From Labilithrix sp. (GTDB lineage: Bacteria > Myxococcota_A > Polyangia > Polyangiales > Polyangiaceae): 37,932 nucleotides of DNA. Under the pieces are notes generated by a model. It was not told the DNA's origin. It searched no databases and was given only the letters and a program-made list of their open reading frames with translations. The stretch is taken from NCBI GenBank assembly GCA_028287065.1, contig JAQBQJ010000062.1, forward strand, positions 1 to 37,932, read 5' to 3'. A program made the position numbers and the translations under genes. Position 1 is the first letter of the stretch. Each line of letters opens with the position of its first letter. This document shows, one piece after another, positions 23,945 to 27,501 of this stretch.

Positions 23945-25342
23945 ATGACTCAGAAGACCGGGAAGGCCGTGCTCGTGGCCGTGCATCTGCCGGACGCCGA
24001 CGACCTCGAGTTCCGCTCGAGCGTCGAGGAGCTCGAGCGTCTCGTGTCGACGCTCGGCTACAAGACGGTCGCGGCGGTCACGCAGACGCGTACGCATCTC
24101 GAAGCCGGGGCGGTGCTCGGCGAGGGCAAGCTCCTCGAGCTCGGCGAGCTCACCGGCGGCGACGGCCATGTCGGCACGACGGCGCCGAAGAAGAAGGACA
24201 AGGCGCGCATGAAGCGCCAGGCGGCCGAAGCAGCGGAGCGCGGCGAGGACCACGAAGACGAGGACGACGCCGGCGATGACGAGAGCGAGGAGCCCGAGCT
24301 CGATCGCGACGGACAGCCCGTGCCGAAGGTCGACCTCGTGGCGGTCGATCACGACCTCTCGCCGAGCCAGGCACGGAACCTCGAGCGCGCGACGGGCTGT
24401 CAGGTGCTCGACCGCACGGGCGTCATCATCGAGATCTTCCACCGGCACGCGAAGAGCCGCGAAGCGCGTCTGCAAGTAGAAATCGCGCGCCTGAACTACA
24501 CGGCGCCGCGCATGCGCGAATCTCCGGGCGGGAAGGAGCGCCAGCAAGGACGTGGCGCCGGCGAAGCGGCGCTCGAGCTGGATCGCCGGAAGGTGCGCGA
24601 TCGCGTCGCGGAGCTGAAGAAGGAGCTCGACGCGGTCCAGCGCGACCAGGACGTCCGTCGTTCCCATCGCCGTCAGGCACGACGCATCGCGCTCGTCGGA
24701 TACACGAACGCGGGAAAGTCGTCGCTCATGCGCGCGCTGACCGGCAGCGACGTCTACGTAGAAAATAAGCTGTTCGCGACGCTCGACACCACGGTGCGCG
24801 CGCTGCAGCCCGAGGCGAAGCCGCGCATCCTGGTGAGCGACACGGTCGGCTTCATCAAGAAGCTGCCGCATGATCTCGTCGCGAGCTTCAAATCGACGCT
24901 CGACGAGGCGCTCGAGGCGTCGCACCTCCTCCACATCGTCGATGCTTCGGATCCGTCGTGGGAGGCGCAGCTCGAGGTCACGCGCGACGTCCTCGACGAG
25001 ATCGGCGCCGGCGACGTGCCGTCGACGCTCGTGATGAACAAGGTCGACCGCCTCGACGCGGAGACGCTCGCGCGCCTCCGCGTGCGTCTTCCGGATGCGT
25101 GGTTCGTGTCGGCGCATGATCCGAAGGACGTGGCGCTGATCCGCGACCGGATCGTGACGATCTTCGAAGCGACGTACGTCGAGGACGAGCTGCTGATTCC
25201 GTACGATCGCCAAGCCGTGCTGAGCGAGATGCACGACTCGGGTCGCGTGGGCGGCGAACGCTACGAGGACAGCGGCATCATCGTGACGTACCGGGCGGAG
25301 CCGGAGACGATCGCGCGATTCAAGTCGAAGCTGTCGAAGTAG
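23945..25342 (+). CDS. hflX: Ribosome-associated GTPase HflX with charged insert
   Basis: A 465-residue HflX-family GTPase. The N-terminal domain has RTHLEAGAVLGEGKLLEL (about 49-66) and SPSQARNLERATGCQVLDRTGVIIEIF (139-165). The G domain has G1 GYTNAGKSS (252-260), a G2 Thr in DTTVRAL, G3 DTVGFIKKLPHD (299-310) and G4 NKVD (365-368). HflX splits or rescues stalled ribosomes. Residues 78-126 are an extra low-complexity insert with a Lys-rich first half and an Asp/Glu-rich second half, dividing the N-terminal domain. Standard HflX lacks this. ATG 23945 is chosen by alignment of the domain start. Confidence 0.93.
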   Translation: MTQKTGKAVLVAVHLPDADDLEFRSSVEELERLVSTLGYKTVAAVTQTRTHLEAGAVLGEGKLLELGELTGGDGHVGTTAPKKKDKARMKRQAAEAAERGEDHEDEDDAGDDESEEPELDRDGQPVPKVDLVAVDHDLSPSQARNLERATGCQVLDRTGVIIEIFHRHAKSREARLQVEIARLNYTAPRMRESPGGKERQQGRGAGEAALELDRRKVRDRVAELKKELDAVQRDQDVRRSHRRQARRIALVGYTNAGKSSLMRALTGSDVYVENKLFATLDTTVRALQPEAKPRILVSDTVGFIKKLPHDLVASFKSTLDEALEASHLLHIVDASDPSWEAQLEVTRDVLDEIGAGDVPSTLVMNKVDRLDAETLARLRVRLPDAWFVSAHDPKDVALIRDRIVTIFEATYVEDELLIPYDRQAVLSEMHDSGRVGGERYEDSGIIVTYRAEPETIARFKSKLSK

Positions 25343-25361
25343 CCGGGCGTGACCGGTTTTT

Positions 25362-25426
25362 CGAGAAACAAGCGGAGACGCGGGGACGCGGAGCCCACGC
25401 GGAGATTTTTTTGATCGGACATGCGC
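25362..25426 (+). repeat. Left 65-bp terminal inverted repeat
   Basis: It pairs with 25866-25930 in inverse orientation at 59 of 65 positions, with no gaps. It begins CGAGAAACA, contains three or four ACGCGGRG-type units, then a T-tract (GAGATTTTTTTGATCGGACA), and ends GCGC. Matching stops abruptly on both sides. The outer boundary falls 19 bases after the hflX stop. Confidence 0.92.
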
Positions 25427-25457
25427 AACTTTCGCGCTGCGCGGCCGATGGGGGCGC

Positions 25458-25862
25458 GTGGACAGACACGACGTGAATGCGGTTAGCGAGCAGGTTGTGC
25501 TCGCATCCATCGAGGTCCATCGGCTCTTGGGGCCCGGGTTGTTGGAGAGCGCGTATCAGGAGGCGCTCGCTTTCGAGCTGACCCTGGTAGGGGTGACGTT
25601 CGTAAAGCAGCCCGTACTCGCCCCGGCGTACAAGGGTCACGCATTGCCCTCGTCGTACCGCGCGGACTTCATCGTCGAAGATCTCGTTGTCGTCGAGCTC
25701 AAGGCCGTCGACCAAGTACTCCCGGTGCACGCGGCACAGCTCTTGACCTACCTGCGAGTGAGCGGCCACCCCGTTGGCTTGCTCATCAATTTCAACGTTC
25801 CGCTGCTCCGCTACGGGATCCGTCGCCTGGCGAACAAGGCCCCAAACCTGCCGCCGCGTTGA
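25458..25862 (+). CDS. GxxExxY family PD-(D/E)XK nuclease-like protein
   Basis: A 134-residue protein starting at GTG 25458. The family signature G-x-x-E-x-x-Y appears as GLLESAY (27-33) after VHRLLGPG. A PD-(D/E)XK core can be read as Asp70 (YRADF), Glu80-x-Lys82 (VVVELKAV), followed by the helix with Gln94 and Tyr98 (AAQLLTYLR). The whole domain is present and no catalytic position is lost, so it looks functional. The family is annotated only by its motif; a nuclease activity is inferred from the fold, and the biological role is not known to me. The gene lies inside a pair of 65-bp inverted repeats, next to hflX and a radical-SAM gene with which it has no evident link. ATG codons are absent before the motif. 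Confidence 0.87.
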   Translation: MDRHDVNAVSEQVVLASIEVHRLLGPGLLESAYQEALAFELTLVGVTFVKQPVLAPAYKGHALPSSYRADFIVEDLVVVELKAVDQVLPVHAAQLLTYLRVSGHPVGLLINFNVPLLRYGIRRLANKAPNLPPR

Positions 25863-25865
25863 TGG

Positions 25866-25930
25866 GCGCGTGTCCGATCAACAAAATCTCGGCGTTGGCT
25901 CCGCGGCCCCGCGTCTCCGCCTGTTTCTCG
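25866..25930 (-). repeat. Right 65-bp terminal inverted repeat
   Basis: Inverse copy of 25362-25426, differing at six positions. It starts three bases after the GxxExxY stop codon and ends five bases before the stop of the leftward radical-SAM gene. Transcripts of the whole unit could form a long stem with the gene in the loop. Confidence 0.92.
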
Positions 25931-25935
25931 GATCT

Positions 25936-27501
<1,566 letters not shown>

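Follow-up and report, generated by a model that had tools for sequence, protein, structure and literature searches.

A GxxExxY nuclease-family gene framed by inverted short-unit arrays: one copy of a probable mobile cassette family with gene-less derivatives

In a 37,932-nt stretch of DNA, referred to here as the window, an intact GxxExxY gene lies between two long inverted arms. We propose that this unit (approximately positions 25361-25933) is probably one copy of a prokaryote-wide family of mobile or copying cassettes that includes miniature gene-less derivatives. The results demonstrated that GxxExxY genes are associated with inverted arrays across phyla, that the arrays co-vary with the protein, that gene-less copies are dispersed within genomes, and that matching loci without the cassette occur. 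Movement of the cassette is what we infer from these sequence patterns.

The window element and its gene

An inverted-repeat search returned two arms of 65 nt that matched at 59 of 65 positions (91% complementary) and were separated by 439 nt. The second-best inverted pair in the surrounding 2.5 kb measured only 28 nt, and a chance origin of the arms was therefore rejected. The unit lies between convergent genes, since the HflX-type GTPase gene on its left is on the forward strand and the radical SAM gene on its right is on the reverse strand. The features are as follows:

23948-25342, forward strand: HflX-type GTPase gene, left neighbour, outside the cassette (GTP-bdg_N, GTP-bdg_M, MMR_HSR1)
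25362-25426, forward strand: left inverted arm, from the repeat search and alignment with the genome's other arms; the element probably spans 25361-25428
25370-25404, forward strand: four 8-nt units, AAGCGGAG, ACGCGGGG, ACGCGGAG and (CCC) ACGCGGAG, read from the sequence
25406-25412, forward strand: T-tract (T7) on the inner side of the left arm, read from the sequence
25458-25862, forward strand: GxxExxY gene of the PD-(D/E)XK nuclease family, 134 aa, GTG start, intact (TIGR04256, 2e-38; PF13366, 2e-36)
25866-25930, reverse strand: right inverted arm, from the repeat search and alignment with the other arms; the element probably spans 25864-25933
25936-27501, reverse strand: radical SAM protein gene, convergent right neighbour, outside the cassette (Radical_SAM, Radical_SAM_N2)

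These results confirmed what the first-pass annotation had described from the letters, namely 65-nt inverted arms matching at 59 positions, an intact PD-(D/E)XK-like GxxExxY gene between them, three bases (25863-25865) between its stop codon and the right arm, and repeat units together with a T-tract in the arms. Alignment with gene-less copies from the same genome further showed that the arms extend a few bases past both edges (inner, GACATGCGC/GACACGCGC; outer, TCCGAGAAACA). GxxExxY was the sole enclosed gene; neither a recognised transposase nor a DDE, Y1 or serine/tyrosine recombinase was found within the element, and Rfam gave no match at or near it.

The window protein matched the GxxExxY profile TIGR04256 over the whole domain (131.2 bits; cut-off 35) and the PDDEXK_3 profile PF13366 (125.5 bits; cut-off 22). 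In alignments of 15 and 67 sequences, residues E30, D70, E80 and K82 of the predicted PD-(D/E)XK catalytic site were invariant or nearly so, and no stop codon interrupted the matched stretch in 66 of 80 GxxExxY loci. The AlphaFold model (pLDDT 92) adopted a minimal PD-(D/E)XK fold, whose nearest structure was the Cas4-family protein 4ic1 (Z 9.6, 3.7 Å over 105 residues). The top Foldseek matches were LHK-Exo and lambda exonuclease, with Hjc resolvases ranked lower. Because the Foldseek E-values failed the 0.001 threshold and most Z scores were below 8, these comparisons secure the fold class and not the function. Cas4, lambda exonuclease and RecB-type nucleases are the closest structural neighbours of GxxExxY but share only 14-18% identity with it, and no solved structure related by sequence to the window protein was found. 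PADLOC models gave weak partial matches alone (RTasPDDEXK, E 0.007; Cas4, E 0.03). We consider the protein a putative compact nuclease of the Cas4/lambda-exonuclease-like PD-(D/E)XK type. The open literature (subscription journals and preprints being outside the scope of the search) contained incidental mentions of GxxExxY only and a single mention of PF13366.

Copies, architecture and distribution

The window genome is a 7.1-Mb draft MAG of 577 contigs. A search for other copies with the same ends, which the first-pass annotation had suggested, was positive: the window arm recurs at about 20 further places in this genome, some of them gene-less, and the arms thus form a genome-wide family. 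Class A copies, found in unrelated contexts on five contigs (one copy at a contig end), are near-perfect palindromes of 120-145 bp with a short loop and no gene. Their arms are those of the window, with the unit array and the T-rich segment followed by TCGAGACAYGCG, and the arm-by-arm alignment with the window element extends from TCCGAGAAACA inward as far as the innermost GACAYGCGC. Since the match runs up to the loop, the gene occupies the loop position. Five gene-less palindromes folded as single-stranded DNA, including one with a different unit on contig C246, gave energies of -52 to -64 kcal/mol (z -9 to -14). Class B copies, of 345-560 bp, share the outer 30-43 nt with the window arms and have differing multi-hairpin interiors (four contigs, plus fragments); five class B elements were seen to hold nested palindromes and no gene. 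Two further GxxExxY matches of the genome adjoin different units, GCGCGAA (C329) and CGCCAAG (C496, at a contig end), and the GCGCGAA unit of C329 is also that of the gene-less palindrome on C246. Many contigs of this genome, of which eight were noted, end within a few hundred bases of the repeats; the repeats therefore probably broke the assembly, and the copy numbers are underestimates.

When 84,980 species genomes were scanned, they yielded 80 named GxxExxY loci in Verrucomicrobia, Planctomycetes, Chloroflexi, Acidobacteria, Proteobacteria, Bacteroidetes, Cyanobacteria, Omnitrophota, Methanosarcinales and other groups. A flanking inverted repeat above threshold (score of at least 14.5) was present at 72% of 112 scorable GxxExxY loci, drawn from Myxococcota and many other bacterial and archaeal groups, compared to 1.3% of 380 control ORFs of 90-250 aa from the same loci. 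The remaining loci, about 28%, fell short of the threshold, being old, degraded or cut by contig ends. The best repeat period was 8 or 9 in 59 of 76 arms. Under a strict array definition, an array lay no more than 300 bp from 61 of the 80 genes, and the orientation was inward (upstream, 52 forward vs 9 reverse; downstream, 50 reverse vs 13 forward). Units were spaced by 8 (99 cases) or 9 nt (87 cases). The commonest outer terminus was TTMACCRCRGAG, with C at -1 in 85%, A at -2 in 94% and T at -4/-5 in 64-68%; conservation faded beyond -5, which fits a defined end. Sampled loci had a median element length of 472 bp from outer end to outer end. Among relatives, the short unit that flanked a GxxExxY gene on both sides tended to be particular to that gene (for example CACGGAGG, ACAGGGAG, CGCCAGGG or CACGAA), such that the unit varied from element to element and agreed between the two arms of one element. 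On plasmid 1 of Gemmatirosa kalamazoonensis, the GxxExxY gene has a complete gene-less palindrome on each side, both of the same unit, and lies within neither. No report on the array unit sequences, or linking GxxExxY to arrays, was found in the open literature (again with subscription journals and preprints outside the scope).

Array similarity tracked protein similarity across 74 loci (Mantel rho 0.50, P = 0.0005), including among distant proteins (rho 0.34). The co-variation persisted with genome and arm GC controlled (partial Mantel r 0.49, P = 0.001), which excluded GC bias as its source. It would fit a protein that recognises its array as well as a gene and array inherited together as one block, and on both readings gene and ends form one unit.

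Gene-less neighbouring arrays no more than 250 bp apart were predominantly convergent (26, vs 2 divergent and 8 tandem). In a phylum sample of 284 genomes, a generic array pattern occurred in 19 of 39 gene-positive and 21 of 245 gene-negative genomes (P = 1e-8, indicative only, as relatives are not independent); its absence from the other 20 gene-positive genomes is partly explained by units that differ from the pattern. At least five arrays were present in 11 of 39 gene-positive vs 1 of 245 gene-negative genomes, and in the sole gene-negative exception the reversed control pattern was richer still. The repeats are thus genome-wide yet linked to the gene; a genome-wide spread with no link to GxxExxY genes was the outcome that the first-pass annotation had named as fatal to the cassette idea. 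Genome G229 had 35 forward and 35 reverse array matches. Its gene-less copies that were examined have the ends GCCTCGCACRGAGTCACGGAG, identical to those on one of its two GxxExxY genes, while the other gene has a different unit; in genome G236, the gene-less copies and the gene likewise agree in their ends. Two single array ends of G229 apparently lie within acidic, low-complexity coding sequence, and arrays may here have been exapted into proteins.

Matching loci without the cassette were found in several lineages. The HflX/radical SAM pair stays convergent in four relatives that lack the cassette, with intergenic DNA too diverged for a base-exact junction. Comparisons among complete replicon records of isolates were clearer. 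In Bacteroides finegoldii, a cassette with ends TTCACCACAGAG...gene...CTCTGTGGTGAA lies between radA and the gene of an FAD-dependent protein, and the matching gap in Parabacteroides distasonis is 13 bp with no palindrome. Similarly, Sphingomonas parapaucimobilis carries a cassette between fabD and fabG, and the matching gap of S. paeninsulae is about 33 bp with no palindrome. The cassettes sit in gene strings between stop and start codons, and the comparison loci keep both neighbour genes. Cassette-free matching loci were found, and a base-exact empty site for the window was not. No target-site duplication was evident by eye in copies from the window genome or G229, the flanks of the comparison loci being too diverged for a base-exact junction, and no excision or insertion event was seen among these species-level genomes.

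GxxExxY was found in 0 of 50,697 phage records and 8 of 72,556 plasmid records, and 3 relatives were found in 2.9 million viral contigs. Phage or plasmid carriage of the cassettes was rejected on this rarity, and most copies are therefore chromosomal.

Alternative explanations and related systems

The main rival reading is an RNA one, in which the cassette RNA would form a long stem, leaving the ORF in its loop, and would be excised by RNase III or by the GxxExxY protein itself; insertion into operons would then be harmless, as for 23S rRNA intervening sequences (IVS) that carry an S23-type four-helix-bundle ORF (PF05635). We consider it unlikely; it owes its place as the leading rival to the comparable 7-nt inverted arrays around S23/four-helix-bundle genes. 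The Coxiella IVS has the same plan as the cassette, with terminal inverted repeats that close a loop containing an ORF, over about 430 nt (PMC4990558), and in three annotated replicons the cassette lies within co-directional gene strings. Inverted arrays framed 83% of 23 PF05635 loci of Myxococcota, and 12 of 19 arms had a 7-nt period, in contrast to the 8/9-nt units of GxxExxY loci. Units at these PF05635 loci include AGTCGAT, GGTCAGA, ACTGTAG and AATTGAT, and genomes such as G229 have 16 or more of these S23/Avd-like four-helix-bundle genes. Two small-ORF families that are unrelated to each other thus use the inverted-array plan, at different periods, which leaves some room for an IVS-like RNA role and suggests a wider class. 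Although 23S rRNA IVS resemble the cassette in holding a small ORF in an inverted-repeat loop of 400-500 nt, the cassette encodes a different protein and lies outside rRNA, its neighbours being protein genes (in the window, those for HflX and radical SAM proteins). The RNA reading also lacks an Rfam match, the nearest folds of the protein are DNA nucleases (the Cas4 family, lambda exonuclease and Hjc), and excision of a hairpin leaves the dispersal of gene-less copies unexplained.

Homing appears less probable still. Here the palindromes and arrays would be an older, independent repeat family that GxxExxY cuts, the gene being copied into the loop by recombination between arms. Homing nucleases with a PD-(D/E)XK fold exist (for example, I-Ssp6803I), the arms would supply homology, and the gene sits where empty palindromes of the same genome have their short loop, yet at unrelated genomic sites. 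However, gene-less arrays are far commoner in gene-carrying genomes and the array type follows the protein, neither of which an independent repeat family need show, and the Bacteroides and Sphingomonas comparison loci lack a palindrome. A scheme in which HUH (Y1) transposases encoded elsewhere move the palindromes, as in RAYT-driven REPs, with GxxExxY as a passenger, is very improbable. REPINs do look similar (PMC3116915), and the window genome has 13 Y1_Tnp matches (for example, C312:227-565), but the arms are absent from all 13 Y1 regions, and three genomes with 47, 24 and 14 array matches have no Y1_Tnp match. RAYT was rejected as the mover on these grounds. Reverse transcriptase was not informative as a mover, since RVT_1 occurred in array-rich and array-poor genomes alike and one array-rich genome lacked it. 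Chance or an assembly artefact is barely credible: the genome is a fragmented draft MAG with several copies at contig ends, but the same plan is present in complete replicons of isolates and at 72% of the 112 loci.

Among known systems, RAYT/REPIN shares with the cassette its gene-plus-repeat logic (PMC3116915): a gene framed by inverted repeats, several unrelated types per genome, gene-repeat co-variation, and dispersed gene-less inverted doublets in the same genome that fold into hairpins. The cassette, too, has inverted doublets of its own repeats scattered through the same genome. The RAYT/REPIN enzyme, however, is HUH/Y1 and that of the cassette PD-(D/E)XK (PF13366), and the repeats are 20-40-nt GTAG/CGTC-tagged palindromes in contrast to tandem 8/9-nt unit arrays. 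Insertion sequence/MITE pairs likewise combine a gene-bearing element with inverted ends and gene-less derivatives with the same ends; the cassette differs in encoding none of the DDE, Y1 and serine/tyrosine recombinases, and inspection by eye showed no target-site duplication. Heptamer repeats (TAACTGA in Beggiatoaceae; STRR in cyanobacteria) are short-unit intergenic arrays in distant phyla with no known mechanism (PMC4679880). They share only the array form: their units are 7-nt direct repeats that mostly precede genes, and no associated gene of the GxxExxY kind has been reported.

Proposed mechanism and significance

In the mobile-cassette reading, which we favour, a cassette consists of one PD-(D/E)XK gene between two ends, each an inward-facing series of tandem 8/9-nt units that stops at a defined outer terminus. 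The nuclease may recognise its own array type, as DNA arms, a hairpin or a cruciform; its cutting of the array could lead to copying of the cassette and of gene-less pairs to new sites, the latter being miniature non-autonomous elements. The logic would be that of RAYT/REPIN with an unrelated enzyme. We know of no catalytic strategy by which a lone PD-(D/E)XK domain would achieve integration. The presence of 7-nt arrays around the unrelated PF05635 family also means that the role of short-unit inverted arrays may be a broader one.

The cassette idea of the first-pass annotation is strongly supported by the gene-less copies with the same ends, the same plan at most GxxExxY genes and the cassette-free loci. 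Of the three options it had offered, a self-mobilising element is now favoured and a transcript stem recognised by its own protein is a live rival; the gene-array association and the co-variation speak against hitch-hiking in which the protein plays no part.

Tentatively, and with less confidence than we attach to the window unit itself, we suggest that GxxExxY cassettes may be a new class of mobile element, found in archaea and in many bacterial phyla, whose movement would require no more than a lone Cas4-like PD-(D/E)XK nuclease, inverted octamer-array ends and host repair, and which would have miniature gene-less derivatives; S23/four-helix-bundle genes in 7-nt inverted arrays may be a second, parallel class. 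If true, this would be a mobile system built on a class of enzyme that is not known to move DNA by itself, and movement driven by the nuclease alone would be categorically new. The cassette family would account for some repeat-driven contig breaks, and the question of how rRNA intervening sequences arose would be touched by the parallel 7-nt arrays that frame S23/four-helix-bundle genes. GxxExxY is often annotated and has been assigned no function, and we found no explanation for the tandem intergenic repeats of the CACAGAG/CGCGGAG type that many environmental genomes contain; linking the two would provide a testable role for each.
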